Shown here: piece by piece, positions 8,479 to 56,176 of the stretch
Position numbering within the stretch: the stretch's first letter is position 1
Layout of the letters: each line of letters opens with the position of its first letter
From: Gautieria morchelliformis
Taxonomy: Eukaryota > Basidiomycota > Agaricomycetes > Gomphales > Gomphaceae
Direction: 5' to 3'
Length of the DNA: 64,000 bases
NCBI GenBank assembly: GCA_015179125.1
Contig: WHVA01000205.1
Span: 62,001-126,000 of the forward strand
Program-made: the position numbers and the translations under genes
The notes under the pieces: generated by a model
The model's database searches: none
Told to the model about the DNA's origin: nothing
What the model saw: the letters and a program-made list of their open reading frames with translations, nothing else

Positions 8479-8693
8479 TGTAAAGGATGTCGATCTTATG
8501 CCTTGTATCACAAGGGCACAACAGAACTTGACCAAGGTGTGGTATTCTGAATGCTACGTAGTGACAGTGTAAGGGTAAGATGCGATGGGGGCCGCTAGCC
8601 GGTTCCCACGCATAAACTATACAGTGGGTCCCTAAGGGGCCCACTGGGATTATGTAATAACTAATGTACATGTAGATACATGGGCTATTTACA
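8479..8693 (-). repeat. 3' LTR of element B
   Basis: 215 bp, TGTAAAGGATGTCG...GGGCTATTTACA on plus. It contains an inverted repeat, CAGTGGG with CCCACTG, around a short loop. Matches 25441-25655 apart from two transitions. The plus-strand CCCTCCCCCTCT after it is the polypurine tract of the minus-strand element. Confidence 0.95.
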
Positions 8694-8729
8694 CCCTCCC
8701 CCTCTATAGACCACTATAGGGGTTAACTC

Positions 8730-10712
8730 CTACTCATAGAGGTTGTCCATGAGGGAGTCCTCTAGAGTGGCCAATACGACGACGACGTCGTCGTACGGGG
8801 CCAGAGGAGCACGTGACTCCTCCGGGTGCACCTCCGCGTCATCGGTGGTGATCGGGTGAGGCTGGTCGGCCTCACCACTAGCGGCGGCCTCCGCTTGGGT
8901 GCTGGGGCCCGTGTCCTCGCGGAGCATGGCCTCAACGGCCGGGTCCTCAGTTTGAGGAGGGGGCCGGAAGCGCGCCAGCTCTCGGTCGAGCTGGGTGTGA
9001 GTGAGGGGTCGCGGTACCGCGGCCCTCACGTGGCTGGTCTCGATGACCTTTTGTTGGCCCTCGCGGGCGGCGGCACTGAATGCCGCGCCGGTGATGCTGC
9101 GTTGAACATAATGTTCAATGCGCGCCACTCGCTCACGAGTGACTCCCGCATAGCGGGCCAACCATCTCGCGATCTCCGCGAGTGGGGTGTCGGGGCCAGC
9201 TCGGCCCTCCACAGGGAATGGACCCGTGATTGAGAGCCGCAGGGTGGTGCTCTGTGGCGTCAGCACTTCCCTGGCATCGACGAGGCTCGACCATTGGTCC
9301 GTCGAGCCGAAGAGGTCGAGTAGCCTCGCCCTGAGTGGTGATGCGACCCCTTTGACCCGGGGTGCAAGGGCCTTCAACCACATCCAGACGTCCATGTCGT
9401 CTAGGTTGAAGGTGCCATCCGCGTTGTCACGGATGGCGGAGGGGATTCCTTCAGGGTTGTGTATCAAACCCTTTAGAATGGCCGTGATGTCGTGCGGGGT
9501 ACCGCCCGCTATCACGAGACAATCCCTTTTGGGATTGCGAGCACGTTGTTCGCGCTCGATGCGTTTGAATACGCCGATCATTTCGTGCATACGCGCGATC
9601 TGCGGCGTTTCTTTTGCCCGCGCTATGAGTTCGACGAAGCGGGGTTCGTCGAGCAGGCAGACGTCATACCATTGGGTGCGATGTTGTTGGGCCTTTCCTA
9701 CCGGTCATGGTAGGATGCCCATCTCGGAGATCGGTGGATCTCCGAGTGGGATGAGCCTTCCCTCCCCCGGGTAGGGAGGATGAACCGACTCAACTGTGCC
9801 CGCCGGCGGAGGTAGGGCCACGCCAGGCCCGATGTACTGGGCCTCGACCTGTGCTATCCGCCACTGAAGGGCGGGGTCATGGATGGTGTGCGACGATGAC
9901 GCCGCTAGGTAAGCGCTGATTGCGCTTTCCTTCGCAATGGCTAGCCCATTGACGGTGTGGAGGGAGCCGCACAATTTCTTGCACTTCTTCTTTGGCTGCT
10001 CTGCCAGCCGCTGTGCCCGTTCGGGGTCGTACGTCTTCCAGACGGACGAGTCGGACTCCCATCCATCTAGGACACCGTACGCAGAGTCGGAAGGTGCGCT
10101 CTGCCCTTCCGTTGTTGTCATGGTCGGCGTCGGCGCCGACAATCGGGACACGAGCCCCGATGTTGTGCGCGCCGGCAACGGCGCCGTCGCACGAGGTGAA
10201 GATGGCCCGGCCACTGGGTCTGTGGCTGGGCCATGTCGCAGCCTTTTTGAGGCAGCGTGGACCAGGGTAACCTGGAGCTGGGCTGCACTCAGCTGCTGCT
10301 CCAGCTCCTTGATCCTGGCGCGCTCGGTCATGAGCACATCGTCGTGGTCCTCGACCGCGCGTTCTAGCTCCTTGACCTCTTTTTTGAGGTCGTGGACGTC
10401 CCGGAGGGGCTCCTCTCGCGCGATGCCCCTTGGGAGCCATCCCCAAGCTGCATCGACGGCGTCGCCGATGTCTTCATCCCGCAACTTGACCTTGCGGGTG
10501 CCGGTCGCGGCCCTAAGGTGCACGGCGTAGTCCGTGCATGTCGCGCAATCGTCCGGGTGGACGATGGCGAGGGCGTCCTCCCATCCCACGATCGTCCAGT
10601 GCTCCTGGTCTATCGGAGCACGGAGAATGTCTGCGGCCCCTTGTCTCGGGGCCGTTGTTCACGTTGTGGACGTTGACGGGTCAATGTCCATCCCATCTTT
10701 GGGGGGCATCAT
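8730..10712 (-). pseudogene. Element B ORF3, accessory protein of unknown function
   Basis: A single reading frame of 661 codons lies between B's integrase and its 3' LTR, in the same direction as pol. The ATG at 10710-10712 gives MMPPKDGMDIDPS. The frame is open to 8730 except for two TGA codons (10659-10661, codon 18; 9705-9707, codon 336). Visible features: WTIVGWEDALAIVHPDD followed by a CATC motif; a strong heptad coiled coil (DLKKEVKELERAVEDHDD and ARIKELEQQLSAAQLQ); Ser/Pro-rich linkers; a K-rich patch PKKKCKKLCG; then a globular-looking half with YDVCLLDEPRFVELIARAK and a C-terminal acidic region. I do not recognise the family. Position suggests an envelope-site accessory gene, but I see no signal peptide or membrane segment. 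It may be spliced near its start. Confidence 0.65.
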
Positions 10713-11023
10713 CTTCGTGGGTAGATGATGGTGGTGGTTGCTTCCAAGAAGCGATGCGCCCGCGGAAAGATCCGAGGTGGAAATTTAACCGCGCCGTGGC
10801 CGGCGCGTCACATGGTCTGCACGTGACAGACGCGTCTAGCTGCGTCTGGGGAGGTCGCGTGGCTTGCCCACCCCCCAAAGCTCTAGATAGCTATCTAGGG
10901 CTTCAAGGTCCTTGCAGGACGACATGGGTTTCCATGTTACGTCGCCTAGGGTCCAACGGACCTGGAATTCCAGGTCCGTCGAGTTTATCCATCGATGTGC
11001 AATAATCTCGTTGACTAGCCACT
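10713..11023. other. Element B non-coding segment with tandem hairpins
   Basis: Lies between ORF3 and the element C insertion site. No ORF. It holds a run of inverted repeats: CTAGATAGCTATCTAG, GTCCTTGCAGGAC, ACATGG..CCATGT, and a perfect 24-bp palindrome at 10956-10979 centred on GAATTC. The CCACT at 11019-11023 is C's left target duplication. Confidence 0.7.
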
Positions 11024-11584
11024 TGTAAGGACCCGGCCTTTGGCCGGCTACTTACCGGTAGAACCTTCTTCCGAGCCCGAGCCTTGTGATATTCATGCCC
11101 GAGTACATATGATACTTATCCGTGCCCGAGCCCGATCTCGAGCTTGAACTCATATCCGACCTTGATCCTATGCCCGTATCCCCTTAGTTACTGATTCCGC
11201 TCCATCACACATCATTCGTATATTACCTCGCCCTGACCTCGGTCTCCTGACCTCGCCCTGACCTCCACTAATCTGTTCGCCCCTGACTGGCACCTCGTCC
11301 GTATATAACCCCCTTGTATGCATTCCTACTCCTCAGTCTGAAAATCAACTATCCTGTCCCTTCGATCCCTAGCTAGTTTCTACGCCTCGCCTCTTAAGCC
11401 AGAACCTCGCCTCTTATTCGTTTACCTCCGAAATTGGGACTCGTGCGTAGGGTCGGCGCAGCACATAAGCTGAAGCCAAGTCCCTCTCCGACTTCCCCAT
11501 CCAAACCTCGCCCCGTAACCTCGGACCTTGCCTCGGGTTTCGTCCCCGACCTCGGTCAACCTTACGACGGATCGTACCGTAACA
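11024..11584 (+). repeat. 5' LTR of element C
   Basis: 561 bp, TGTAAGGACCCGGCC...CCGTAACA. It contains a tandem of CCTGACCTCG(C/G) motifs at about 11230-11265. Promoter and transcript start signals are annotated separately. Identical to 17955-18515 except CACACATC versus CACGCATC. Confidence 0.96.
11302..11345 (+). promoter_or_regulatory. Element C promoter and transcript 5' end
   Basis: TATATAA at 11302-11308 is followed 33 bp later by AGTCTGAAAAT (11335-11345). That 11-mer is the exact reverse complement of the primer site just inside the LTR (11587-11597). In Tf1/sushi-type elements the transcript 5' end folds onto the primer site, so this spacing predicts transcription starting at about 11334-11336. 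Confidence 0.75.
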
Positions 11585-11586
11585 GT

Positions 11587-11597
11587 ATTTTCAGACT
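11587..11597 (+). promoter_or_regulatory. Element C self-primer binding site
   Basis: ATTTTCAGACT begins two bases after the 5' LTR end and pairs perfectly with AGTCTGAAAAT at 11335-11345 (12 bp if the flanking G/C is counted). This matches self-primed reverse transcription rather than tRNA priming. Confidence 0.75.
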
Positions 11598-11627
11598 GCT
11601 TACACCCTACGTATCCCTTTTTTCACG

Positions 11628-12860
11628 ATGTCCATGATAACTCGTTCTCGCACCCTTCGGGGTATCTCAGAACAGCGACGTTTCTCGGAAGCCCCCGATG
11701 ACTCACCCCCGTCCCCGGGGATACCCCTCGCAGACCCCGCCGAGCCTAGTAACAAAGGCAAAGGTAGGGCTAACCTCGGTGACCCTTCAGGTGATCCAGG
11801 TGATGGCTCTAGAAGTTCTGACAACGATCAGGACCTCCCCAACCTTCCGCCCGAGGACCTCGGTGACCTCGAGGACAACGAGCTTATGCGTCGAGTGTTC
11901 ATCAAACTCGCGAAACCTCGCGAATCCGAAGCACGAGCCAAGGTCAAGGAACCGGATAGTTATGACGGTACTGACCAAGCCAAGCTTCGCACTTTCTTCC
12001 TTCAATGTGTACTCAACTTCAGAGATCGCCCCACCGCGTTCAAGACTGGGGCCTCAAAGGTGCAGTATGCTATTTCTTACCTGTCCGGCTCGGCTCTGCA
12101 ATATTTCGAGCCGGCGATTCTCGGCGAAGTCCAACCCGAGCCAGATTGGCTCGAGGACTGGGACAGTTTCAAGGCCGAGCTCGAGCTTAACTTCGGCCCA
12201 TACGACAACGCGGCCCAAGCCGAGATTGACCTCGAGAAGATCGTTATGAAAGAGCACCACAAGGCCGCGCGATTCTTTATCGACTTCGCCCGAGCTTCGA
12301 CTCGGACTCAGTGGAACGACGCGGCCCTCCGACACGTTGCCTACAAGGGCTTGGCCAAACGGATCAAGGACGACTTACTTCACTTCCCTCGATTCCGCAG
12401 CCTCGCCGAGCTTAGGAACTTCGCGCTGGAATGCGATAGCCGTTACTGGGAGCGAAAGGAATACGACGCCATGATCACTGGTCGTAGCTCCCAGCCTGCA
12501 CGCACCACTAATCAGTCCAGTAGCAATGCCACTAACAACCACCAGTCTTCCAGTGGTTCCAATAACAATAAGAACCGCAACAAGACTAACAACAGCGGCA
12601 AGGGTTCCAACAACAACAACTCTTCGAACAACAAGAGCCAGCCCGACATTTCGAGCAAACTCGGGAAGGATGGCAAACTGCTTCCCGAGGAGCGCCAACG
12701 TCGGGTCGACCAAGGGCTTTGTCTGCTTTGCGGCACCAAAGGTCACGTCGTCAAGGACTGCCCGAAGAACAAGTCTACCAATAGTAGCGGTTCTAAAGGT
12801 CGGGCAACGAAGACCCCTAACGAGGGGACTTCAGCCTCCATTACGGAGGTGAAAAAATAG
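11628..12860 (+). CDS. Element C gag
   Basis: 410-residue Gag, the structural protein of the virus-like particle. The ATG at 11628 is the first in the transcript frame. The N-terminus is Pro/Ser/Asp-rich; the capsid region carries DGTDQAKLRTFFLQCVLNF, AISYLSGSALQYFEPAI and HKAARFFIDFARASTRTQW (about residues 110-230), typical of retrotransposon gag domains. An Asn/Ser-rich linker (about residues 285-340) precedes the CCHC knuckle CLLCGTKGHVVKDC (about residues 364-377), which binds RNA. It ends AAAAAATAG, a possible frameshift site into protease. The ORF is intact. Confidence 0.93.
   Translation: MSMITRSRTLRGISEQRRFSEAPDDSPPSPGIPLADPAEPSNKGKGRANLGDPSGDPGDGSRSSDNDQDLPNLPPEDLGDLEDNELMRRVFIKLAKPRESEARAKVKEPDSYDGTDQAKLRTFFLQCVLNFRDRPTAFKTGASKVQYAISYLSGSALQYFEPAILGEVQPEPDWLEDWDSFKAELELNFGPYDNAAQAEIDLEKIVMKEHHKAARFFIDFARASTRTQWNDAALRHVAYKGLAKRIKDDLLHFPRFRSLAELRNFALECDSRYWERKEYDAMITGRSSQPARTTNQSSSNATNNHQSSSGSNNNKNRNKTNNSGKGSNNNNSSNNKSQPDISSKLGKDGKLLPEERQRRVDQGLCLLCGTKGHVVKDCPKNKSTNSSGSKGRATKTPNEGTSASITEVKK
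12851..12860 (+). other. Candidate -1 frameshift site at the gag stop
   Basis: GAAAAAATAG: six A residues directly before the gag TAG. A slip of -1 here enters the frame that is open through 12861-13036 and contains the protease motif LVDCGSSD. No other way to link gag to protease is apparent. Inference from frame analysis; no downstream pseudoknot was modelled. Confidence 0.55.
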
Positions 12861-15800
12861 GTAGCAACCTCGGAACCACACGATCCGAGGATTGCGGTAA
12901 CCTCACCCGTGTGCTCAGACTCAGCGCCGCTTCTCATTCATTGTCCAAAGATTCCCTTAATGTAGATCTAACCTCGCCTTCGCTGCCCAACGTCGCTTTT
13001 GTTGCATTAGTTGACTGCGGGTCCTCAGACTGTTATTGAATCCAGATTTGTCCAGAAGTACTCCATGCCTGCTTATACTGTCTCTCCTATACCCTTGAAA
13101 CTATTTGACGGTAGTACTAACACTACCATTACCCAAGCTCTAGACCTCTGCATTTGCTTTCCGACCGGCGAACAACAATGGGTTACCTTCTACGTAACCT
13201 CGCTCGACTCGAGTTGCTCGATGGTACTTGGCCACAACTGGCTCACCCGCTACAATCCGTCGATTGACTGGGTATTGGGCAGTATTACTTTCAAGACCAT
13301 CGACCTAACAACGACTCCAGCGACCCCGGCGACGTCAGCCCGCTCAGCTTCGGCTACGACTTCGACCTCGCCTACGGCATCTTCGCCCCCGCCTCCGACC
13401 TCGCTTCCGAAGTTGCAAGCACCCCTCGTTTCCCTAATCAATGCACCCGCTTTCATACGCGCATCTAGATTGGAAGGGTCCGAAGTGTTTCAGCTCAATT
13501 TGGCTTCGCCTGAGCTCCTCGCCAGAGGGGCAACATCGGGAGGAAGCTCTTCCGAGCTTCCTGAGAACATTAAGAAACATGTTCCTGAAGAATACCACGA
13601 ATTTGCAGATGTGTTCAGCAAAGCACGCGCTGACACTCTAGCTCCCCACCGACCTCACGATATCAAAATCAACCTCGAAGAAGGGACCTCGCCACCGATC
13701 GGTCCCATCTACTCTCTCTCAGCTTCCGAACTCAAAGCACTTCGCGAGTTCATCGACGAGCATTTAAACATCGGCTTCATCCGACCTTCACGCTCGCCTC
13801 ATGGTGCACCGGTATTGTTCGTTCGCAAAAAAGATGGCTCACTTCGGTTGTGCGTCGACTTCCGAGGTTTGAACAAAATCTCAAAAAAAGATCGGTATCC
13901 ATTGCCATTGATTGCTGACTTACTTGATGCTCCAAAGAATGCTCGCACCTATACGAAAATTGACCTTCGTCACGCTTACCACCTCGTACGGGTGGCCGAG
14001 GGTGACGAATGGAAAACCGCCTTCAGGACTCGCTATGGGTCTTTTGAATGGTTGGTTATGCCATTTGGTCTCACTAATGGCCCTGCTGCCTTCCAGAGAT
14101 TCATGAACGAGGTGTTCGCCGACCTTTTGGACGTTTGTGTGGTGGTATACTTGGACGACATTCTAATCTACTCCAGTGACCCCTCCAAACATGTGGAACA
14201 TGTCAAGGAAGTCTTGCGACGACTACGACTCAACAACCTCTTCGCCAAAGAAGACAAATGCGAGTTCCATCGCGACTCGGTTGAATTCCTCGGCTACATA
14301 CTCTCTCCTGAGGGCCTCACTATGGCAGATGACAAGGTAAAGGTCATTCAAGACTGGCCTGAACCTCGCAAAGTTCGCGACATCCAATCCTTCCTCGGCT
14401 TCGCCAACTTCTACCGACGTTTCATTCACAACTACTCCGACATCACCATTCCTCTCACCCGACTTACCCGCAAGGGTACCCCTTGGAATTTTTCCGAGGA
14501 TTGTCGACGGGCTTTCAACCTGTTGAAGAGGGCGTTCACTACCGCTCCTATCCTTACTCACTGGATTCCTGACCTTCCACTGATCGTAGAGACTGATGCA
14601 TCAGATTATGCCTTAGCGGCAATCTTATCTCTACAAACCTCGGAAGGCGAACTTCATCCCATCGCTTTCCACTCCCGCACATTCACCTCTACCGAGCTCA
14701 ACTACGATGTTCACGACAAGGAGCTCCTCGCCATTTTTGAAGCCTTTCTACGCTGGCGACACTACCTAGAGGGCTCAGGCGAACCAGTTGACGTTATCAC
14801 CGATCACAAGAACCTCGAATACTTTTCAACTACGAAGCTCTTGACCCGTCGACAAGCTCGGTGGTCGGAATACCTTTCCCAGTTCAACCTCGCCATACGC
14901 TTCCGACCAGGTCGCCTCGGAACGAAGCCTGACTCTCTCACTAGACGATGGGACGTCTACCTTAAAGAGGGGAATAGCGACTATGCCACCATAAACCCGC
15001 AGAACCTACGGCCAGTGTTTACTCAGCACCAGCTGGCATCGTCCCTTAGAGCTACTAACCTCGCTCCCATCGTGCTCCGAGCCGCTTCACTGCTTGATAC
15101 CGAGCAGATCCGAGCTGACATACTAGCGAACCTCCCCTCGGACCCCATAGCCAAGTCGCACCTCGGCTTGGTTAATGACCCGAGGTGGACCACAGACCCC
15201 GAGGGTTTCCTCAAGCTTGACAACCGAACCTATGTTCCAGCGGCCCAAGACCTTCGACTTCGCATCCTGCAATACAAGCACGATCACATTCTCTCGGGAC
15301 ACTTCGGGGTCAACAAGACCTTGGAGCTGATCCGACGAGACTATACTTGGCCAGGGATTAGATCCTTTGTCAAGGAGTATTGCAAGACGTGTACCACTTG
15401 TATGCGAAGCAAGCCGCAACGTCACAAACCCTATGGTCTCCTCAAACAACTTCCTGTTCCCGAGAAACCTTGGAATTCCATATCTATGGATTTCATTGAG
15501 CAACTCCCCCCTTCGTCCGAGTTCACCTCCATCCTAGTGATTGTTGACCGCTTCACTAAGCAGGTTATCTTCATTCCAACCACAGACAAGATAACCTCGC
15601 AAGAGCTCGCTCACCTCTTCGTCCTTCATGTCTTTTCAAAGCATGGAGTTCCCTCGCACATCACCTCGGACAGGGGTTCCGAGTTCGTCTCGCATTTCTG
15701 GCGTTCTCTAGGGAAAGCCTTGGACATGCGGTTGCATTTCACCTCGGGATATCATCCCGAGGGTGACGGTCAGACCGAGCGTGCTAACCAAACTTTGGAA

Positions 15801-16568
15801 CAGTACCTCAGGATCTATTGCAACTATCAGCAGTCAAATTGGGCTTCGCTCCTTCCCCTAGCCGAGTTCGCTTACAACAACGCGCCTAGCGCAACCACCG
15901 GCATCTCCCCATTCTTTGCCAATAAAGGCTACCATCCGAACCTCGCAGTTCACCCCGAGCGCGACCTCGCCTCGGCACGAGCCCGAGACTTCGTGGTTGA
16001 CCTGGACGAGCTTCACCAAGAACTTCGCCACGCCATCCTCGAGGCTCAGAAAACTTACCAAGCCTCGGCCGATGTTCGTCGCAAGCCCGCTCCTGATTTC
16101 CAAGTAGGATCCCTCGCCTTTGTGAAGGCACAGTACTTTCGAACAACTCGGCCTACCAAGAAGCTCGCCGAGAAGTTCTTGGGTCCTTTTGAGATCATTT
16201 CCCGAGCGGGTACTCACTCCTTCACCCTTCGACTTCCAGAACACATGCATTCAGTCCATCCGGTCTTCCACGTATCTATGCTCGAACCAGCCTCGCCCAA
16301 CACCATACCAAACCGATTTCAGCCGCCTCCGCCCCCAGTCGTTATCGACGGCGAACCCGAGTTCGAGGTTTCCGAAATCCTCGACTCGAAGATCGATAAT
16401 AGACGCAAGAGCTGCAAATTACTCTACCTTGTTAGGTGGACTGGTTACGAAGGTACCGACGAAGAAACCTCGTGGATCCTCGCTTCCGAGCTTGATCATG
16501 CCTCGGAGCTGGTCACGGATTTCCATGACTCTTACCCGGGCAAGCCCGGCCCCTTGACTGCTCTATGA
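12861..16568 (+). CDS. Element C pol (protease, RT, RNase H, integrase, chromodomain)
   Basis: Polyprotein of a chromovirus-type Ty3/gypsy element. The protease motif ALVDCGSSD (about 13000-13030) is in the -1 frame relative to gag; the frame then changes at about 13028-13037 and stays open from 13011 to 16568 without an ATG, so initiation by frameshift is likely. Codons counted from 13011: RT with VYLDDILIYS (about 378-388); RNase H with ETDASDYALAAIL (about 526); integrase zinc finger HILSGHFG...CKTCTTC (about 756-800); DDE core with SMDFIEQL (about 823), TSDRGSEF (about 885) and DGQTERANQ (about 920); chromodomain with EVSEILDSK and LYLVRWTGYEG (about 1118-1160). All catalytic residues are present. 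The second frame change inside protease looks like a two-base loss and may inactivate this copy. Confidence 0.92.
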
Positions 16569-16671
16569 TCGTTTTCCCTGTTAATCCCCATGACCCCGGT
16601 AGTTAGATGACAAAAACCCTTCAAAACAAAATCGATAAAATCCAAGAAAAATCTATTATTCCATTTACTAG

Positions 16672-17782
16672 TTATTCCACCATCCTCATATCCTCTCCCT
16701 CGCTCTCCTCGCTCCCCTCGCCTGACTCCTCCTCATTACTGCTACTACTTCGCTCCACCAGACCCCCATGTCCCCCATAATCCGCCAAGTCTCTCGCCCC
16801 CTGCATCCGCTTCAAATAATTCCGCCTCCTCCTTATCCTCATGAACTCCACATCCGCCCTGTTCATCCTGTCATTCGCAGCCCTAAACTCCCCTAGCAAC
16901 TCGCACACCCTCTCCCCAACCTCGCCAACCTTCTGTCCCACATCCCTCACCGCCGTTATCAACTCCCTCATCTCCGCACTTCGCTCCGATCTTTTCGTCT
17001 TCTTGTCCTTTTTCGCCCTCCGACCTCCAACCTCGGTTTCCTCCCCCTCAGTCTGCCTCACTTCCCCAGTCTCCTTACCCTTCTCCTCGCTCAACCTCGC
17101 TTCCATCCGCTCTACCCTCATCTCGAGGTTCCTCTCGACCCAATCACTCGAGTCGTTGTCATCATCATCCACCTCGTCTCGAACCTTGGCCCCTTTCCTC
17201 GGCCTCGGTTCACCCTCGGCCTCCTCGCTCCTCGCTCGCTTCTTGCTCGCTACACCCACCTGACCTTTCCCTGGGGTCGCCTTGCTGCGGCGACCTTGGG
17301 CGATGCTACAGCCCAAGGAACGGGTCCTGCACCACACGCAAGCACCCTGGTCGGCGAGGCCGAAGTCGAGACTAACGGCCCGAAGGCACGTATAGTCGCG
17401 CTCTTCGCAGCGCGCGCACCTCGCCTCGGCCTTGGTCGCGAGCTGCCACTCGCGAGGTCCCCCGTCGGCGAGCTTGTACCCGTATAGGGACAAGTCAGTC
17501 GGGTGGTATGAAAACAACATGCGCTTATACTGTACAAATCAGCAGCGTCCATGACCAGCCAACAACGGTACTCACCTTTTTTCCATTCGGCCCTTCCTGC
17601 CACGGCTGCCGCATGTCAATGGCCCCCGTCTCATCAATTGGCAAGGTGCCAACCTCGGGTCGATCCTCGGGCACAACCTCGCCCGAGGCTCCGTTCGCCG
17701 CAGACAGCAATGTCTGGTCGAACACGTTGTTTGTGCTGTCCTCGTCGACGGCTGAGTTGAAGAGGGCTTGAGGGCGCACCAT
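16672..17782 (-). CDS. Element C antisense accessory ORF with one intron
   Basis: Gene on the opposite strand between pol and the 3' LTR. The ATG at 17780-17782 (MVRPQALFNSAVDEDS) is followed by exon 1 ending PNGKK; a 46-bp GT-AG intron (17530-17575) joins in phase 0 to YKRMLFSYHPTDLSLYGYKL. Exon 2 has two small Cys clusters, CARCEERDYTC and CVWCRTRSLGC (both C-x2-C-x6-C), then a Lys/Arg- and Glu-rich charged region, a coiled coil (ERVCELLGEFRAANDRMNRA), and an acidic Ser-rich end. The open frame and clean splice argue it is real. An in-frame upstream ATG at 17830 is possible. I do not recognise the family; the Cys spacing hints at a zinc-binding DNA-associated protein, but that is inference. 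Confidence 0.65.
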
Positions 17783-17941
17783 ATTCGTTGGCAATGGGGT
17801 TCGCTGCCTCCTACCCACCCTTTTATCCAACCTCGGCTACGATTTAAGCTTCGCCTTTCCGGCTACTTAACATCGGACCGAGATCTAGATTCAAGGATAG
17901 GCGAACCCTGTTCACATTACGGCCTCGAGGGTCTCGGCCAT

Positions 17942-17954
17942 GAGGGGGGAATAC
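17942..17954 (+). promoter_or_regulatory. Element C polypurine tract
   Basis: GAGGGGGGAATAC directly before the 3' LTR at 17955. Polypurine tracts prime plus-strand DNA synthesis in LTR elements; position and composition fit. Confidence 0.75.
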
Positions 17955-18515
17955 TGTAAGGACCCGGCCTTTGGCCGGCTACTTACCGGTAGAACCTTCT
18001 TCCGAGCCCGAGCCTTGTGATATTCATGCCCGAGTACATATGATACTTATCCGTGCCCGAGCCCGATCTCGAGCTTGAACTCATATCCGACCTTGATCCT
18101 ATGCCCGTATCCCCTTAGTTACTGATTCCGCTCCATCACGCATCATTCGTATATTACCTCGCCCTGACCTCGGTCTCCTGACCTCGCCCTGACCTCCACT
18201 AATCTGTTCGCCCCTGACTGGCACCTCGTCCGTATATAACCCCCTTGTATGCATTCCTACTCCTCAGTCTGAAAATCAACTATCCTGTCCCTTCGATCCC
18301 TAGCTAGTTTCTACGCCTCGCCTCTTAAGCCAGAACCTCGCCTCTTATTCGTTTACCTCCGAAATTGGGACTCGTGCGTAGGGTCGGCGCAGCACATAAG
18401 CTGAAGCCAAGTCCCTCTCCGACTTCCCCATCCAAACCTCGCCCCGTAACCTCGGACCTTGCCTCGGGTTTCGTCCCCGACCTCGGTCAACCTTACGACG
18501 GATCGTACCGTAACA
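17955..18515 (+). repeat. 3' LTR of element C
   Basis: 561-bp direct repeat of 11024-11584 with one visible difference. Followed by the target duplication CCACT (18516-18520). Confidence 0.96.
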
Positions 18516-20523
18516 CCACTCCTCGTCGTCGTTTGCTCCAAAGTCATAAAATGACTTGGCCTCACGACGAGGGAACAATTCGTCGTTGTTAGCCTCGTAT
18601 CGCCGTACGAGGCTGGAATGGAAGACCAGTGAAATGCGATGGCTTTTCAGTTCGTCAGGAAGATCAAGGGTCACCGTCGAGGCGTCGTTGTGAGCCTCGA
18701 CGATGCGGTACGGTCCGATGTACCCCGGGACTAGTTTTCTGGCTCTTCCTTTCGGGAGAGTTAGGTTTTGTGTCGAAAGGTAGACACAGTCGTTGGCCGC
18801 GTACCTGTCGCTCGCCATACGTTTCTTATTTGTGTGAAACGTTTGCGTCACTCGATGCTCTATGATTGCATCGTGTGCCGCCATCAGGTTCCATTTTGCC
18901 TGATGTGCGAACCGGGCCACCCCCTTGAACGGGGTGTCTGCGGCTATGGGGAGGTCTATCCGCGGCATATAGCCGTGGATCAGCTCGAAAGGTGCGAACC
19001 CTGTGGTCGCACTGACATTGCTGTTGAGGGCGACCTCAACCATTGGGCATTTCACTGCCCAATCCTTCTGATCGTCTCTGACGACCGCGCGCAATATCTG
19101 GCCAATCGAGCGGTTTGCCCGCTCGGTTGCTCCATCCGTTTGTGGATGGAAGGCAGTTGACATGAGGAGCTTAGTCCCCATGAGTCGCTGGAGTTCACGC
19201 CAGAAGATCGACGTGAACTTTGAGTCTCTGTCCGAGACGATGGAGTCGGGAACTCCGTGCAGTCGGATGACCTCTTTCAGAAACAGCCAGGCTACTCCCT
19301 TGGCTGACACGCTCGTCGTGGTTGGCACGAGGTGTACGAGCGATGTTAGTCGGTCGATGACTACCATCAGGTAGTCGCAGTCATTGGATTTGGGCAGGGG
19401 CCCCATGAAGTCAATGCCAATCGACTGCCACGGCCTATCCGGAATGGGTAGGCTGTGTAGTAGGCCTTTGGGCCGTTGTGGCCCGGTTTTCGTCATCTGG
19501 CACCTCGCGCACGATGTGCAGAATGCTTCTATGTCTGGGTTCATGCCCGGCCACCAATATGCTCTTCGAACGTAGTTCGAAGTCTTCAGATGGCCGTAGT
19601 GGCCGACTATCTGATGTGCCCGATCGATGATAATTTCGATCAGCTTCCTTCCCCCTTGAAGAACAGAGCGGGGGACGGCAATGACGTCTCTCTTGAGCTG
19701 ATTCTTAGTCCAGATCAGCCCGTCCCGGATCCCGAATCTCGGGTGCGCGTCCGGGTGCGCCATGATCTTTGTGAACATGGTGTCCCTATGGTACGCGTCT
19801 CGCAGGACCTTAGACAGGTCCATGCCTTGCTCAACGATCCGGCGCAGGGGTGCACCGTCGTTCCCTGCGGCGATGGCTCTGACGTCATCGTCATCATCGC
19901 TGGACGCGGCGACGTTCGCGGGCTCTGGTGAGCCCTCGTTTAATGCGGCGGCTTCCGTTACTCTCGCCTCTGTCTTCTCAGCGAGGCGTTTAGAGCGTCT
20001 TGTTGCCACTGTTCACAGCTCGACATACCGGTCGGTGGGCAATAACTCACCGTCCTAAACGCGCATCCGCGTTCACGAAGACGTGGTCCGGGTGATTGTC
20101 ATCACTCGTGTCGTTCTCGTAGTAGCGCGACAGGCAGTCCACTACCTTGTTCTCTACACCGTCAACATGAATGGTGTTGAAATTGAACCGGGAGAGAAAC
20201 TCCCACCATCTGACCTGTCGGTCAGATAGGCTCTTTTGGGTCTCGAAGTACTCGAGTCCCTTGTGGTCTGTGACGAGGGTGAACCTTCGCCCCAGCAGTT
20301 TGTCCTCCCATTTCATGAGAGCCTCAAGCACCGTGATAGTCTCGTGCTCGTGAGTCCGGTAGCGTTGCTGAGCAACGCTGAACTTCTTTGACAAGAAGCC
20401 GGCTGGTTGACAAGTTTTCCAGTCGGGACCTTGGCCGTAGACCGCACCGAAGCCGGCTTTTGATCTGTCGGTGATTACCCAGATCGGCTCTGGGCACCTT
20501 GCGTCTACTGGACGCAGGATCGG
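18516..20523 (-). pseudogene. Element B RNase H and integrase
   Basis: Part of B's pol downstream of the solo LTR. RNase H region: WVITDRSKAGFGAVYG, LVTDHKGLEYFETQKSLSDR and RWWEFLSRFNFNTIHVDG. Integrase region: zinc finger HYGHLKTSNY...CTSCARC; DDE core with GIDFMGPLPKS, IVSDRDSKFTSIFW and GATERANRS, all acidic residues kept. The end is cut within the C-terminal region (SFYDFGANDDEEW) by element C at 18515/18516. Between the two regions one extra G near 20053-20056 shifts the frame and a TGA at 20013-20015 follows, so the copy is dead. No chromodomain is visible after it. Confidence 0.88.
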
Positions 20524-21003
20524 TGTCAGGGGACACCCTGTTTTCCATTTCCAGTTCCGACACCACACCCAGTTCCGACTCCATTTCCGACTCCGCTTCC
20601 GGTTCCGATTCCATCTCCGCATCCGCTTTCGGGAACGATTCCGCTTCTGGGAGAACTTCCACCAGTTCCGTTCGCCTTGCCAGTTCCACTCCAATTTCCG
20701 ACTTCCGCCCCGGAACAGTGTCGGAAATCAAGCGACTCGCATAATAGGTGGCATCAAGGGTCGATCAAGGGTCAGGGGGATGCAGGGTTGATGGCGGGTG
20801 CCAAGCGTTGTCCCTGGCTGCGCAGCGTAGTATAATACGGGCTCGCTGACATTGGGGGTCCTTAGACTTTTCTCTTTGGATTTCCCCTTGTCAGGTGAGA
20901 ACCCCCTCTCTTGTATGCTCTGTTCATTTATACATACTTTGGATTTCCCCTTGTCAGTTGTGTGGTAGTGTGATCTCCACGACTAGCCAGGGTTGCCCTT
21001 ACA
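20524..21003 (+). repeat. Solo LTR of the element A family, inside element B
   Basis: 480 bp, TGTCAGGGGACACC...TTGCCCTTACA, the reverse complement of the A LTRs with small indels. Flanks ATCGG (20519-20523) and ATTGG (21004-21008) form an imperfect target duplication. Removing it joins B's RT to its RNase H in frame, so it arrived after B and its internal part was lost, presumably by LTR-LTR recombination. It is oriented opposite to A and to B's genes. Confidence 0.9.
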
Positions 21004-22097
21004 ATTGGGGCCTTACAGGCCAACGCCTTAATGCTTTGCCAGCATTTGTCGAGCAGTGGTGTCCATTCGAATGGACGGTTATTACGCGCACAGCCCGATA
21101 GCGGGGTGGTATATGTGCTAACATCCGGCATGTAGTGTGCCAGATACTGTACGAGCCCGAGGAAACGCTGGACGTCGTTGAACGTCCGTGGCCTGCGCCA
21201 CTCGCGGATGCGTTGCATCTTATCCTCGTCGGCATGTACCCCTCGGCCATCGATTATATGGCCAAGGCACTCCATTCGGATGGAGTAGAGGTCCACCTTT
21301 TTCTTGCTCAGAAAGAGGTGGTTCTTCCTCAGTCTGTCAAAGACGATATAGAGGTGTTCTTCATGCTCATGTATTGAGGGCGAGAATATGAAGATGTCGT
21401 CCATGTATACATGGACGAAGCGACCTATGCAGTCGCGGAAAATGGCTGTCATCAGCCGTTGGAATGTTGATGGGGCGTTACAGTCCCCCATCTGTATCAC
21501 CTGGCTCCTGAAGGTGCCGAGGATCGTGGCAAAGGCTGTCTTTGCTACGTGATCCGGATGGATCCGGATCTGCTCGTATGCTTCTGACATATCGAGTTTA
21601 GTTCGATATCGGCAGCGAGCCATGTCGCTGCGTATGATATCCTGATCCGGGAAGGGTGTGACGTCCTTCACCGTGTTTTCGTTCTGCTGGCGCAGATCGA
21701 AGACGGTTCTCAACATACCATTCTTCTTCGGCACACACAGCATGGGCACTGCCTGCTGCGCTACTGCCGGAATCCACCATGTTGCCATGGTGTATCGTTC
21801 TATCTTTGCCGACAGTTCCTCTCGGAAGTGTTTGGGGCATTTCGGTAGTCGATACCGCATGTGCTTGTTGGGATCGATGAGGTTGATCTCATGGTTGATC
21901 TCCCGCAGTGGCGGGAGTTCTAATGGAATTCCACTGACTAGGTCAGTGATTCTTTCCATCCATTCCTCGCGGAGGCGAGGAAGGTCATCATCTGTGAGGA
22001 TGATGGTAGTGGTTGGCTTAGATGCCATTAGGCGCTGTTGGCGTCTATTAGGTCCCGCGGCGCATGGGCCCGCTTTCCGCTTTCCCATCGCTTTCAC
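21004..22097 (-). pseudogene. Element B reverse transcriptase
   Basis: RT domain of B in one open frame. Visible motifs: ELPPLREINHEINLIDP, VPKKNGMLRTVFDLRQQNE, FATILGTFRSQVIQMGDCNA, and the catalytic HVYMDDIFIFS, a YMDD box rather than the YLDD of elements A and C. MECLGHIIDGRGVHADEDKM and FNDVQRFLGLVQYLAHYMPD follow, then the frame reaches the connection domain and is cut at the solo LTR. This part is intact in itself. It starts about 80 bp after the gag-protease ORF in the same frame register as 22176-23630, so it is probably expressed as a fusion. Confidence 0.9.
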
Positions 22098-22175
22098 CGT
22101 TAGGCGAGAGCGTCTCTCCCTACGACTGTAGGGTGAGTTCGAGGATGAGTCGACCCACGACTCGTCCTCCTGGCT

Positions 22176-25100
22176 TCAATGAGCCAGGTTCGGCGTCGGC
22201 GCTTGGGTGATCCTGCTCACCCGTGGCCCTTTGTCCTCGTTCTTCGATTCGTCGTCGTCAAATGAGACCTTGCCCGTGGGGATCACTTCGTTTCCCTTGC
22301 GGATCATCCCTGGGCTCGAGAAGTCCAGGGTTATGCCGAATCTCCTTAGGAACGGTGTCCCTAAGATCGCATCATAATATTCGACGTTTGCTACGTCGAA
22401 GTATTCGTCGTATGTCCCGCGACCAAACTTGATGGTCGTGTTCGTTCCATAGTTGATCATGGAACGGCTGCCTATGCAGGCTAGCTGCAGCGCGATTGGT
22501 TGCTCCAGGGAGAATGTCTTCATCCCTGTAGCTCGCGTGAATTCGGGGGACAGCAGTACCCCTTCGCTGCCGCTATCTAGCAGGCAGTGGGCTTTTACAC
22601 CATTTATTTCCCAGTACCCTGATAGGGTACGGTTCTCACTACGCGGACGCATTGGCCGCGTTCTGTGTTTGCTTCGGTGGTGATACACCGGCTCGGCCGC
22701 CTTGTCTGGCGTGACCGATGTGCGAACCGCCATGACTTTCGTGGCGGTTTCGTCCTCCAGCGCGAATCTGATCGCGCTGGACCTGTAGGTGGTGTCCTCC
22801 ACCTCTTCGTCCCATTCATAGTATTGGGACGGCTCAGGGTCCCACTCTTCAGCGGGCATGTCTCCGTTATCCGGAGTGTCGTTGGGTTGGGGATCACCCT
22901 CCCCCTCTTCATCAATCTGTTGAAGAGAGTTTCGATCGGGATCCATCTCCGGATCCTCGGCTTCACCGTCGTGCCTCACGGCCGCTGTCCTTATACCGGA
23001 CCTAAGCCGGGGGCATTCTGCCTTCTTGTGGCCAGGTTGGCCACATTCAAAGCATGTGGTGTTGCTTTGGCTGCCGCTGGGCCTCTCATTGGGCCGGCCC
23101 GACGTTTTCGTCGGTGGGGCAGGTCGCGGGGACGATCCTGACGCTTGAGGCTGTTTAGCTTCAGGCGGGCGTCCAGCTTGTGCTGGGCGTGAGGGCGGTA
23201 GCCGTTGACCTGTTCCACTTCTTGCGAACAGGCTGGGCCTGGTCAGGCCCGTTTGTGTCAACGGCTTGTTCCCTGTGAGCCGGGCGGCGCTTGCCATTGC
23301 TGCTGCACTTTCTGTGCGGCGCATCCCCATGTTGTATCGGGATGCCTCCTCGATCATTCGGGCCGTCTCGAAGAGTTGCTCTATTGAGCTGCTCTCGGCA
23401 TTATAGCCCTTTTTGAGGACTTCGTTGCGCAGCGTTTCGTGTAGCGCCGATACGAACCGTCTCCGGAACGTGTACTCGTCTGGCGGCTGTATCATACGTG
23501 CCGCGTATTTCGTGAGCTCGTTCAGCATCTCCTGAACGGTTTTCATGCCTTGCATGACCGCGTCGAATTTATTCGATGCGTGATGGTATGTCAGTGTGTG
23601 CAGGAACCTCTTTTGAAGGCCTTGCATCACTGATTCCAGCGTCCAGCTGCGGACCTGGCGATCGAAGCGTTCAACGTTTCAAAGGAACCACTCCTGGGCT
23701 TCACCGGTGAGGCGAGTGCCCACATAGCCGACCTGCGTGTCAATGCTGGTTGGCCCTAGGAGGCAATTCATTTTTAGCCATCGTAGGATGGCTGCCACGA
23801 AGACTTCAAACTCTCGAGGTCCGATCCCCCTGCATATGGCTCGGGGTGGGCCAATTTTACGCCGGCCTTCGCTAGCACAGACTTCTCCAGGTCTGTGTCC
23901 GCGGCGTCTGCCAACGCCTCGCGGATCATCCGTGTGATCCCGTCGTACGGCTCCATTGGTACGACGTCGGTCTGGTCAGGGATTCCCTGGCCTTCCGTTG
24001 GAGCCATGGATCGCTCGCGTGGTTGTGACGCCGCGCGGGGCAGGCTGTTATATGCCCTGACGGGCCCTGGGCCCGGTTGGGCTCGGGATCGGGAGCATTT
24101 TGTGCTCTCGGATCTGGGGGCGTTTTGTGCCTGGTGTCCCCAGTCAGTCCCGCGTTGCGGATCCGTAGCCTGCTGTTGTAGGCTGCACGCGCTTGCCGTG
24201 CGTCTTGGACGGCTTGCGTGAGCTGCTCGTCAGGTAGCTGAGCGGTGTGGCTGTGGGCCACCGTTTTCTTCAGCGTTCTTCGCTAGTAGCTCGAGTGCCC
24301 GTGTGTGGCGGCGCGCGGCTGCGGCTTCTTTACGCTGCCAGTGTGCGACTTCGAGCTCTAAGCTCTCGGTCGTCGTTTCAGAGTCAGGCTCTGAGGCGAC
24401 CTGATCCCTAACGATCTGTTGGATCGTTTTACAGCTGTCCGTTGGGGCAGCCAGTTGTTCCTGAGGCTCGTTCCCGAACCTTACGTCCTGTTCGACCGGG
24501 ATGCTGGCAGCGGCATTCGCTGCTTGTCTCGCTCCTTTCGGAGTGCGTCGCGACTGCGTTCGTTAGCTGCGGACTGTCGCGAGCTTGGACGAGTTGCGTC
24601 GCGTTCCCCGCGTGGGCGGAGTGCTTTCTGGACGTCCTCCAGCGTGTCTGCGTCTTGCAGCCTGATCTCCTCTGCCTGGTGGAGTTCTTTGCCGATTGCC
24701 ATTAGGGCGGCGGCGGCGTTGTCAAGCTGCGATGCCAGCTGATCGTGCTTGTGGCGCGTCAGTGTACTTCGGTGCAGCGCAGCCTGCACCTGTTTGTTCA
24801 GGGCTTCTGCCGTCTCGTGGTCGATGGCGTGAGCCCTCGAGCTCTTGCGACTAGAGCTCAAGTATTCCGAGTCCTGACCATCATCTGGGGCTCGTCTCTT
24901 TTGCCGTCGTCCTCTTTCAGGGACGATCGTCGTCGCTCTGCTTCATGAGCGTCGGTTCGAGTCGTGGCTTTGTGCCCATCTCGACGTTGTTGCTCTACCG
25001 TCTGACGACGGCGAGACTTCTCTGCCCTTTCCTTTGTCTTTGGGCAGAGAGAGATGGGGGGGCGGCGCCGGCTCGTTGCCCGGCGTCGTCTCTTCTTCGG

Positions 25101-25302
25101 CCACGCTCAACGAGACGTGGTCGGGATTTTCCTCATCCTCTACTGAGGGGACGAGGGTGGTGAGATCTACGATCTCTCCATCTTCTATTGTCCTGGTCTC
25201 TTGGTCCAGCATAGCGTCAGCCGTCGTGTCGCTGGGCTGCGCCTGGGGCGTGGACCTCGAGCTCTTCGCTTGTGTCCGTCTTCGACTGCGTGGAATCATC
25301 AC
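22176..25302 (-). pseudogene. Element B gag and protease
   Basis: Long Gag region. The first frame starts MMIPRSRRRTQAKSS (25302) and is Ser/Asp-rich; a TGA at 24943-24945 interrupts it, then the same frame continues with a helical, probably coiled-coil segment (ETAEALNKQVQAALHR, ALMAIGKELHQAEEIRLQDA) and with VAHWQRKEAAAARRHTRALE. Frameshifts near 24480, 24000 and 23640 lead to the capsid-like part (FDAVMQGMKTVQEMLNELTK, YTFRRRFVSALHETLRNEVL), the knuckle CFECGQPGHKKAEC and the protease motif CLLDSGSEGVLLSPEF. The reading frame then ends at 22176. Unusually long gag for this class, more than 900 codons if the breaks are ignored. Confidence 0.82.
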
Positions 25303-25440
25303 GCTCGCAGCCGACAGTAGAAGGTCTACTGGAGGGTGTCAACGATTGTTAGTCGTCGACGCAGCAATCTTTTTCAAGATTGCTTCGAATCCACTATCGG
25401 TTGGTCGCGTGGCGATCAACCGCAGGATAGTTCAAAAAGG

Positions 25441-25655
25441 TGTAAAGGATGTCGATCTTATGCCTTGTATCACAAGGGCACAACAGAACTTGACCAAGGT
25501 GTGGTATTCTGAATGCTACGTAGTGACAGTGTAAGGGTAAGATGCAATGGGGGCCGCTAGCCGGTTCCCACGCATAAACTATACAGTGGGTCCCTAAGGG
25601 GCCCACTGGGATTATGTAATAACTAATGTACATGTAGATACATGGGTTATTTACA
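25441..25655 (-). repeat. 5' LTR of element B
   Basis: 215-bp direct repeat of 8479-8693 with two transitions. Followed by target duplication TCCTC (25656-25660). The minus-strand sequence after it (toward 25420) does not pair with any part of the LTR, so a tRNA or another primer is likely. Confidence 0.95.
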
Positions 25656-28600
25656 TCCTCACACAAACCGGCTGTCCAGGATCCGTTCCACCACATAGTG
25701 CTCTTCCCCATCTACAATTTCCGGTGGAGGGGGCGGACGGGCCTTCCGACCTGGAATTGGGTCCTCAAGCATAGGGAGTAACTTCACCACGTTGAAGATG
25801 GGGTGGAGGCGGGACATGGACATCGGAAGTCGGAGGCGGTATGCATTCCGTCCAACCCTCCGCATCACTGTGAAGGGCCCAAGGTAGCGGTGGGAAAGCT
25901 TCTGCGAAGGGCGTGTGGTGCGGATGTCACTTGCATCTAGATTCACCTTGTCTCCAACTTGGTACTCCGGGGCAGGAACCCGGCGTTGGTTGTAGTACCT
26001 TGCCATGTCATCCTTGGCCTTTGCAAGGGCCGACTTGGCTTCCGAAAGGGTGGAGTCCATGTGGTCTCGGAACTCATTGACGGTCTCGAGTTGGGACTCT
26101 GCCTGGCGCGGCTCAAAGCCCATCCGTGGGTGTCGTCCAGAGTCAAGCATGAAGGGAGTTTGTTGTGTGGCGGAATGTACGTGGTTGTTGTATTGGAATT
26201 CCGCCAGTGGAAGTAACTCATCCCAGTCATCCTGCCTCTCATTGACAAAGAGGCGGAGATATTGCTCCAACTCCTGATTGACCTGTTCCGTCTGTCCGTC
26301 ACCCTGTGGATGGTATGCTGTGGTGGTAGCCAGCTTTATGCCGAGCAGGCAGTAGAGCTCCCGAGTCAGTTCCGCGATGAACTGCGGACCTCGGTCGAAA
26401 ATGACTTGCTTCGGGAGCCCATGCAACTTCCAGACATGCACAAGGAACAGGCGGGCCGCTCCGAGGGCTGTGATCGTCGTGTGCATCGGAATGAAGTGGG
26501 ACACCTTGCTTACCGAGTCCACGACATTCATGATCGCGTCGTAGCCATGGGACTCTGGGAGTTCAACGAGAAGTCGACACTGATGGTGTCCCAGCGGGAT
26601 TCTGGAATCGGGAGTGGAACAAGTTCTCCGACGGGCGGATGTCACTGTGCTTTGGTTCAGAGACAAAGGTCACATGTCTTCACGTACTGTCCAATGTAGC
26701 GGGACATCTGAGGCCACCAGTAGTTCTGAGCCACTAACTCCAGCATCTTCCACCTGCCAGCATGCCCAGCGACCTGTGTGTCATGGTGCTGGGACACAAT
26801 GCGGCGGTGGAGGCCCGCCCCACCTGGAACATAGACCTTGCCTCTGAAGTGGAGCAGTCCATCACGTTCCGACCATTCCGCTGCCCGTACAGACCGTGAG
26901 TGCCCTTTCCGAAGTTCCTCCACCGCCTTCACCACCGACTCCTCCTTCTCTCCATTCCGGTACTGTCTCCGGATGTCCCAGAGCATTTCCGCTTCCGCCC
27001 CAACTGCAGTCACTCCTTCTAGGGCGCGGATTGCAAAGAGACTTGGGCGGAGCAGTGTCATATCCGCGTTGTCTCCACTTCCGCTTCCATGATCCGCACG
27101 GCGGGATAGGGCATCGGGCTTGCCCATGGTGCGGCCGGGGCGGTGGTGGAGCATGAAGTCGAACCGGGACAGGTGTAGGGACCACCATGCTTGTCGTCGG
27201 TTCAACTTCTTAGACATGCGGAAATACTCGAGGTTCTTGTGGTCTGTCCAGATCTCAAAGGGGCATAGAGCACCCTCAAGGAAGTGTCGCCACTCCTCCA
27301 GCGCTCGGATGATTGCCAGCATCTCCTTGTCATGGATCTCATAGTTCCGCTCAACCGGACTAAGGCTCTTAGAGAAGAAGGCAATCGGATGCCACCCCCA
27401 CCATCTTCCGATGACTGTTGTGACGAGACCGCTCCGGTAGCTGTGTCGGAAGAATCCGCCTTGACTCGATAAGGGCGAGATTCATCGGGAAAGATCAGGA
27501 CCGGGGCAGAAGTGATCAGCTCTTTGAGTTTGTCAAAGGAGGCCTGTTCCGGCTCTCCCCACCGCCATCCAACCTCCTTCTTGGTGAGGTCGAAGGGCAC
27601 GGGCGTGGCAGGAGAAGTCCTTGATGAACTGCCGGTAGAAATTGACAAACCCAATGAAGGACTGGACCTCCTTCTTGTTCCACGGCACCGGCCAATCCGA
27701 TACACCGGAAACTTTGACTGGGTCCATTTCCACCTTTCCTTCCGACACAATCACCCCAAGATACTCTATCCGCGTCCGCTCAAATTCGCACTTTTCTGGC
27801 TTGAGACACAGGTTGTATTCCAGGAGCTGTTCCAGCACTCTCCGCACGACTTCCCGATGTTCTGACATTGTTTTTGTGAAGATGAGGATGTCATCGAGGT
27901 AGACGCAGACAACCCCTTCTGCTATCATGTCACGGAAAATGTCATTCATCATCGTCTGGAACGTGGCAGGACTGTTGGTGAGGCCAAAGAACATGACCTG
28001 CGGCTCAAAGAGTCCTTGGTTGGTGCGGAATGCGGCCTTCCACTCATCTCCCTCCCGGATCCGAACATTATTGAAGCCCCAGCGGACATCCAGCTTAGTG
28101 AAGTACCTCGCCCCGCGGAGTTGTGTGATCAGTTCAGAAATGAGTGGAATGGGGTACCGGTTCTTGATCAAAATAAAAAAAAAAAATTTTTTTTTTGTTT
28201 GACTAGCGGACCCCTTCTTATTTAATATTAAATGCTCATATTGATTTTGTCGTGATCGCATTCAAGGCCCGGTAATCCTGCACAAGTCTGAGTGAGCTGT
28301 CCTTCTTCTTGATGAAGAACACCGGAGATGCCATAGGTGACTTGGAGGGGCGGATCCTCCCTGTACAGAGGTTTTCCGCAAGGAATGCATCGAGCTCTAC
28401 CTGCTCCTTGGGTGACAGCGGGTAGACTTTGCAGTTGGTGGGCTTTGACCCAGGCTCCAACTCGATGGCGTGGTCCCACAGCTTCCGTGGAGGCAGGGCA
28501 GCAGGGCATCAAACGACTCCTTGGAAAAGACGTCCTCGAACTCCTGCAGGTACTCCGGAATTTCCACCTCCACTCTATCATGCTTCTTGGAGGCTTCAGC

Positions 28601-32290: not shown

Positions 32291-33206
32291 TAGTGTCATG
32301 GGCAGAATGAAATTTATTCTGCCAATTGCCGGCAATGGCAGAAATGGCAAAAGGGGTATTCTGCCGAGTGTGGCAGAATACGGCAGAAAGTTTTTCATGC
32401 TAATTTTACATGTTAAGCCATTAGGAGACACCAGCCGCACTCATTACTGCCTCTGGATCCCACTCAGACACTGACCCATCCCTACTTCAGTGCATATGAA
32501 TATCTTCTTCATATGCATGTGGTGCTTGGCCTTGATCAACACGTTGAGTGCTTCAAGATCATATACCTGTGCCACTGTAATCTCATTCCTGTCCAGCTCA
32601 GGATCAATGATTGACAATCCAGCACCATGCCTCTCTAATTCATAAAAACCGGCCTCAATTTCATCCAGCAGAATAGATTCAGGGCCTTCCAGAGGTGCAG
32701 TCCAGTCCACTGCTGTTACAAACATGCCAAAGACAGTTATGGTCACGATGCTTCACAAGTGCTGCATTGCTGGGGCAGTGATTGCATCGCCATTTCCACC
32801 GATTAGAGTTATTGGAAAGTTTTTCAACCGGAGTGAAGTTCCTCTCAACGAAACCATTGGCACTGCGACCCTTTGGCTTCTGCTTAGGCTTCAAAAGTCC
32901 TCCGCATACTGGAGAAGACATGGAAAAGGGCACAATTCAAGCTAGCACAATTTATATTACATCAGACTAGTCAATACATGGAGCTTACTTAATTGAGAGT
33001 TGTGTCACTCCCAAATGCATTTATGCCCGCATACTTGATAGTACACTCTGGCAGTCAATTCACATAGCCTAAACAGAGCCTAGAGTAAGCTGTTCTTATT
33101 TCTGCCATATTCTGCCAACTCTATTCAAAGGCCTGCCATCTGCCATGGCAATTGCCGGTTGGCAGAATGGCATGGCAGAGTGTGGCAGGAGTTGCCAACA
33201 ACACTA
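32291..33206 (-). mobile_element. Non-autonomous hAT transposon, 916 bp
   Basis: Ends TAGTGT...ACACTA, flanked by an exact 8-bp duplication GCTGCAGC (32283-32290 and 33207-33214), the hAT hallmark. Many TTCTGCC/GGCAGAA motifs crowd both ends, as in hAT subterminal repeats. Inside on minus: a BED-type zinc-finger remnant (RWKWRCNHC then KHRDHNCLW, near 32750-32830) and a short acidic ORF at 32444-32746. No transposase catalytic domain, so it is an internally deleted derivative, inserted upstream of the Crinkler-like gene. Confidence 0.8.

Positions 33207-52887: not shown

Positions 52888-56176
<3,289 letters not shown>

Follow-up and report, generated by a model that had tools for sequence, protein, structure and literature searches.

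A stretch of 64,000 nucleotides from the fungus Gautieria morchelliformis (the window; positions below refer to it) contains a retrotransposon, element B, that appears to be packed with short perfect stem-loops, which raises the question of what put them there. A sequence-only reading of this DNA had described inverted repeats every 30-50 bp in all coding and non-coding parts of B and none by eye in the neighbouring elements A and C. It had offered two causes: selection for a densely folded genome or a mutational process that perfects hairpins. It had also proposed counting hairpins against shuffled sequences, scoring folding energy in windows and looking for compensatory substitutions.

B is a Ty3/Gypsy LTR retrotransposon on the minus strand, in a host that belongs to the Basidiomycota (Gomphales). 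It has the gag-protease-RT-RNase H-integrase order of Ty3/Gypsy elements, together with TG...CA LTRs and a short target-site duplication. Pfam matches above cut-off were obtained for the zinc knuckle, RT, RNase H, H2C2 and SH3_Tf2-1 domains, and the protease (25.3 of 28.2 bits) and integrase core (30.2 of 32.6 bits) fell below the curated cut-off. With its LTRs, B spans 8479-25655, which corrects the earlier span of 8694-25440 that left the LTRs out. The LTR pair is 98.6% identical over a 220-nt block. B is nested within element A (repeat D2) and is in turn split by element C (repeat D1). No Pfam match was found for ORF3 (8730-10658), and the search with its 9705-10658 stretch gave two related proteins among 5,297 candidates, both from Gautieria morchelliformis only. 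Named relatives of the B integrase, among the best 120 of 744 matches, come from Meripilus, Peniophora, Ceratobasidium and Agaricus. The 603-nt stretch at 20401-21003, between RT and RNase H, is carried by the window copy and two others (L002 and L003), three of the 29 B copies that have both flanks. The other 26 have 117-132 nt at this site, and these three are about 485 nt longer.

Table 1. Features of element B and its surroundings, with perfect inverted repeats (arm 6+, loop 0-15) as observed versus the mean of shuffled sequences.
Feature	Position	Strand	Inverted repeats, observed vs shuffled	Basis or remark
Target-site duplication TCCTC, left copy	8474-8478			matches 25656-25660; flank letters
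3' LTR of B (TG...CA)	8479-8693	-		direct repeat D3, ends read off
ORF3 of B, open stretches 8730-9704 and 9705-10658	8730-10658	-	19 and 20 vs 5.1 and 5.4 (codon shuffles)	one stop inside
Spacer of B	10659-11023	-	6 vs 1.2 (shuffles)	
Embedded element C, outside B	11024-18254	+		outermost 300-nt repeat blocks 11024-11323 and 17955-18254
Integrase stretch (H2C2, core, SH3_Tf2-1)	18345-20012	-	25 vs 7.5 (codon shuffles)	Pfam
RNase H stretch	20047-20727	-	9 vs 2.7 (codon shuffles)	Pfam
603-nt stretch carried by few B copies	20401-21003	-		copy comparison
Reverse transcriptase stretch	20928-22175	-	18 vs 5.0 (codon shuffles)	Pfam
Hairpin with kept GCAA loop and covarying apical pairs	21775-21792	-		copy comparison
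Gag (zinc knuckle) and protease-like stretch	22176-23678	-	26 vs 6.4 (codon shuffles)	Pfam
5' gag-side open stretches 23774-24229 and 24481-24942	23774-24942	-	6 vs 3.4 and 4 vs 2.1 (codon shuffles)	open frames
5' leader region of B	24943-25440	-	6 vs 1.6 (dinucleotide shuffles)	
5' LTR of B	25441-25655	-		direct repeat D3, ends read off
Target-site duplication TCCTC, right copy	25656-25660			flank letters

All 13 inverted repeats that had been listed for B were exact. Ten segments of B contained 8.7-21.0 perfect inverted repeats per kb (arm 6+, loop 0-15), which is 2.45-5.79 times the count in dinucleotide shuffles. The excess was found in gag, RT, integrase, ORF3 and spacer alike, as the sequence-only reading had it. 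We also compared the eight open-frame segments with shuffles made by synonymous codon swaps, which leave the protein, codon usage and dinucleotides unchanged (100 shuffles per segment). The segments held 1.77-4.07 times the shuffled count, and six of the eight lay above all 100 shuffles; the two 5' gag-side segments, 23774-24229 and 24481-24942, were inside the codon-shuffle range. Stems use all codon phases (registers 37/32/28), and the claim of action at the nucleotide level is borne out. The excess goes far beyond composition, codon usage and protein sequence, and it spans coding and non-coding parts.

Non-overlapping counts of perfect hairpins (arm 6+, loop 3-15; B without its 20401-21003 stretch) gave the same picture. 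Over 8,784 nt, B contained 117 hairpins, where dinucleotide shuffles gave 22.9 (sd 2.6); the spacing of one per 75 nt is sparser than first reported. Element A (16 in 5,151 nt vs 15.2, sd 3.5; 1.06 times chance) and host DNA (112 in 40,672 nt vs 96.6, sd 9.1; 1.16 times) were about at chance. The view that A and C are free of the property therefore holds for A but not for C, which had 36 hairpins in the 6,631 nt of 11324-17954 vs 13.8 (sd 3.5; 2.6 times chance). The excess in C is weaker and takes a less specific form, with 65 direct repeats vs 23.0 expected and 48 mirror repeats vs 28.5. B had 62 direct repeats where 37.0 were expected and 30 mirror repeats where 34.6 were expected; its strong excess is thus one of inverted repeats. 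Simple repeats were ruled out as its cause, since mirror repeats are at chance.

With the protein held fixed, codon choice alone gave B 3.94 times the expected hairpins. The protein sequence was itself biased to hairpins by a factor of 1.38 in B, 1.12 in C and 1.16 in A. The proteins of B are thus partly bent to hairpins, and the force is not purely synonymous. The 603-nt stretch contained four inverted repeats vs 1.9 in the window copy and seven vs 2.04 in L002, and it is ambiguous as a young control.

The typical B hairpin has an arm of mostly 5-8 bp and a loop of mostly 4-8 nt. Loops of 4-8 nt were found in 86 hairpins vs 8.7 expected and loops of 0-2 nt in 16 vs 6.5; loops above 20 nt were near chance, except for 26 vs 18.3 at 31-40. 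The ratio of observed to expected rose with arm length, from 1.14 (4 bp) and 1.72 (5) to 3.3 (6), 10.7 (7) and 14 (8). No perfect arm exceeded 10 bp, though very few would be expected, and imperfect arms reached 15 (up to two mismatches). The loops are rich in A on the sense strand (0.354 vs 0.256 for the whole of B). The 23 tetraloops inspected share no motif by eye, and Rfam gave no match in 8479-25660, which rules out known RNA families there. Stem ends show no preference for G-U pairs (27/238 vs an expected share of 0.114). A-C mismatches are in excess there (68/238 vs 0.206), perhaps from a sense-strand bias of G to A or T to C.

Folding energies agreed with the counts. In 120-nt windows, the mean z-score of B (n=116) was -2.52 on the sense and -2.15 on the antisense strand, with 59% of the sense windows below -2. 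C was intermediate (-0.83/-0.54), and A (-0.16/-0.12) and host DNA (-0.12/-0.14) were near zero, with folding-energy excesses of 1.5% and 1.6%. In 350-nt windows (n=27 for B, ten shuffles each), the folding-energy excess of B was 26.7% sense and 20.9% antisense vs 8.5% in C, 5.1% in A and 5.4% in host DNA (small sample). Against codon shuffles, all five B frames folded more strongly, with a sense excess of 17.9-38.0% (z -5.5 to -9.4) and a likewise strong antisense excess of 18.3-26.9%. The excess was -0.7 to 3.1% in three A frames and 10.0% in the C pol. The C gag showed a folding excess on the antisense (z -6.2), not the sense (z -1.0) strand. When the same perfect hairpins were planted in shuffled B, the excess was 13.4-15.6% vs 28.0-28.6% in real B; planted hairpins yield about half, so weaker pairing between and around the perfect hairpins contributes. 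The difference in energy between sense and antisense falls within a symmetric null and was dropped as evidence for a strand.

We then asked how far the trait extends. All 58 B-family loci (30 RT, 12 ORF3 and 16 integrase; the window accounts for two, and some loci share a copy) had a hairpin excess, at 3.17-7.50 times the shuffled count. Eight integrase-core loci, probably of Copia elements, showed no detectable similarity to A, B or C and ranged from 0.88 to 1.45 times. Among ten other Ty3-like loci, a copy of C (L040) reached 2.47 times and a mixed stretch (L041) 1.74 times, and the remaining eight lay at 0.58-1.28 times. L039 has an RT 64% identical to that of C, yet its hairpins were at only 0.62 times. 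The strong excess is thus found at every B-family locus in this set, whereas the other sampled elements show little or none of it. Because sampled elements such as L039 lack it, the extreme hairpin excess is a trait of the B family and not of the host genome. No separate, intermediate B-like family was clear among the matches listed for the same genome.

Some details of these loci stand apart. In the Ty3 elements L039 and L043-L046, hairpins are rarer than chance (0.58-0.80 times); L048, of the same kind, is at 1.09 times. Loops in the C copy L040 tend to 9-15 nt. Prokaryote genome contigs held only distant relatives of B (29-40% identical), and none were found in viral contigs. Eleven distant loci in MAG contigs, with the same range of identity, had 1.14-2.26 times the shuffled count. 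The distant Ty3-like locus L055, in a Dehalococcoidia MAG contig, had a folding excess of 13.1%. The MAG contigs with distant relatives, including that of L055, are presumably eukaryotic contamination.

Elsewhere in the window, a tandem repeat at 53235-54283 shows up as three almost identical open frames at 280-base offsets. On the host side, 32301-32381 contains two adjacent hairpins with a common GGCAGAAT/ATTCTGCC motif, which may belong to a small transposon.

Of the two causes first offered, selection for a folded genome fits these results better, and hairpin-perfecting mutation fits them less well. We think it probable, on counts and predicted folding, that the single-stranded genome of B folds nearly throughout into short hairpins as a result of long selection for base pairing. 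Over a long time, and mainly via synonymous choices, selection would have favoured pairing in the genomic RNA or in another single-stranded form; the RNA stage would be the target in the simplest version. With stems this short and dense, the RNA may escape hybridisation, long-duplex formation and RNA silencing; compaction for packaging may be an alternative benefit. In a fungus, the candidate sensor escaped by folding would be RNA silencing. In the Gautieria genome, three places match Piwi and two match RNase III.

We regard it as unlikely that the hairpins arose by mutation without benefit, with the nascent strand folding back during reverse transcription, one arm being copied onto the other, and only the proteins acting as a filter. 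Such a process suits an excess that is strand-symmetric within the power of the tests, the partial bending of the proteins, and some nearby double changes that retain pairing. It also suits the variability of stems, which is not lower than elsewhere: among B copies, 0.273 of stem columns and 0.275 of the others were variable. However, in each of the six classes into which the 1,379 variants among B copies fall, the mean effect was a loss of hairpins, which gives no sign of a hairpin-perfecting process at work today. Nor are stem codons less conserved than other codons. Residue conservation was 0.555 in stem vs 0.523 in other codons of B when pooled (p 0.27), 0.562 vs 0.479 in integrase (p 0.029) and 0.544 vs 0.580 in RT (p 0.48), and the two arms of integrase hairpins differed in conservation by 0.246 vs 0.233 for random placements. 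Conserved stem codons and equal arms are not as expected from arm-over-arm copying, although purifying selection could hide its trace. The absence of perfect arms above 10 bp, although few would be expected, and the half of the folding excess that lies outside perfect hairpins also speak against it.

Changes among the copies were profiled for traces of either process. In stem pairs, 65 of 68 double changes retain a Watson-Crick pair, but transitions on both sides would do so unaided, and 49 of the 68 are in one hairpin. The compensatory-substitution test, run between B copies, returned one clear hairpin and no general excess. In that hairpin (21775-21792), two apical pairs are changed in 23-25 of the 29 other copies, with pairing and the GCAA loop retained, and two copies have a U-G intermediate. 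Linked covariation in B stems was at control level (2 vs 1.67 for arms of 5+, 1 vs 0.82 for arms of 6+), and complementary linked transitions (28) were not above same-type ones (35). Variants present in four or more copies had a sense effect of -0.14 +- 0.10 and a sense minus antisense difference of -0.17 +- 0.08, and singletons had a sense effect of 0.02 +- 0.06 (all against a polarity-corrected null). Before allele polarity was allowed for, the allele-swap effect of variants in four or more copies was -0.74. The corrected values are a weak hint that such variants disturb sense folding slightly less than expected. B copies share 90-100% identity, and deamination at CpG after insertion is the probable source of much of their variation, which leaves tests on copy variation with little power.

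It is also rather improbable that selection acted on the minus-strand cDNA or an antisense transcript, or that the hairpins serve as Gag-type binding sites, instead of the bulk folding of sense RNA. The other strand is favoured by the A-C mismatches at stem ends, which would be G-U pairs in the antisense, and by the antisense folding excess over codon shuffles. The A-rich loops of the sense strand, the tetraloops without a shared motif and the absence of an Rfam match argue against this account. An artefact of GC-richness, codon bias, simple repeats or counting method is most improbable, even though B is GC-richer than the surrounding DNA and overlap had inflated one A segment (27533-28261, from 13 counts to three non-overlapping, one of them an A-run beside a T-run), because dinucleotide, phase-Markov and codon shuffles fail to reproduce the excess, folding energies against codon shuffles and non-overlapping counts (117 vs 22.9) rule out composition and codon usage, mirror repeats are at chance, and other elements of the same genome, C and its copy excepted, lie at 0.58-1.74 times.

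Long selection for pairing therefore remains our preferred reading, and it can be extended. Tentatively, and with more doubt than belief, we suggest that an LTR family evolved a genome-wide ordered RNA structure above that of the surveyed RNA viruses, tuning all its genes, as a passive shield against silencing or hybridisation in a host that carries RNAi genes, and that related elements in the same genome went the opposite way. If true, RNA folding can shape the codon choice of a mobile element and partly its proteins. A many-copy B beside unfolded elements under the same host defences makes a natural comparison, in which small RNAs, transcript stability, packaging and copy number could be compared between folded and unfolded families.

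B shares with yeast Ty3 and its fungal relatives the order of gag zinc knuckle, protease-like, RT, RNase H and integrase domains, the LTRs and a 5-bp duplication. Unlike yeast Ty3, B has an extra 3' ORF. The RNA of yeast Ty3, as probed by SHAPE, is described as A-rich (~36%) and mosaic in structure, with a well-folded core of ~20% (PMC11381356), whereas B is predicted to be folded nearly throughout. Element C resembles B as a Ty3/Gypsy element with excess hairpins and a folding excess in pol, but it is weaker, and direct and mirror repeats are also in excess. We found no report of genome-wide ordered RNA structure in an LTR retrotransposon in the open-licence literature, a scope that makes this weak evidence of novelty.

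Pervasive whole-genome folding has been described for RNA viruses, where its function is debated. Like viruses with GORS, B is predicted to be folded genome-wide, coding parts included, probably with short duplexes, and the trait is present in some lineages and absent in related ones (PMC3950689, PMC7642675). An excess over dinucleotide shuffles was found in ten of ten B segments, which matches the whole-genome spread of GORS. GORS duplexes are described as limited in length, never above 11 bp (PMC3950689). The GORS threshold, a folding-energy excess of more than 3% over sequence-order-randomised controls (PMC3950689), is exceeded by B (26.7%) but also by A (5.1%), C (8.5%) and host DNA (5.4%) in the small sample of 350-nt windows. 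Values given in PMC7642675, for 350-base fragments and dinucleotide-keeping controls, are ~15% for SARS-CoV-2, 7.5-10.7% for hepatitis C virus and 12.5% for human pegivirus, with 23.4% as the highest. The 26.7% of B is above this survey maximum, in a comparison that is approximate because B has fewer windows. Paired sites are reported to be less diverse in GORS viruses (PMC7642675); B stems are not, but their variation is probably mostly post-insertion, and this makes the comparison a weak one. GORS is also characterised by pairings that change quickly from one related genome to the next. GORS papers tie folding to escape from RNA sensing (PMC3950689). GORS belongs to the genomes of positive-strand RNA viruses, whereas B is an LTR retrotransposon with a reverse-transcribed DNA stage. 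Selection on folding, to a degree that equals or exceeds viral GORS, appears to be the best-supported account, and B would work like GORS, yet it falls outside that set of viruses.
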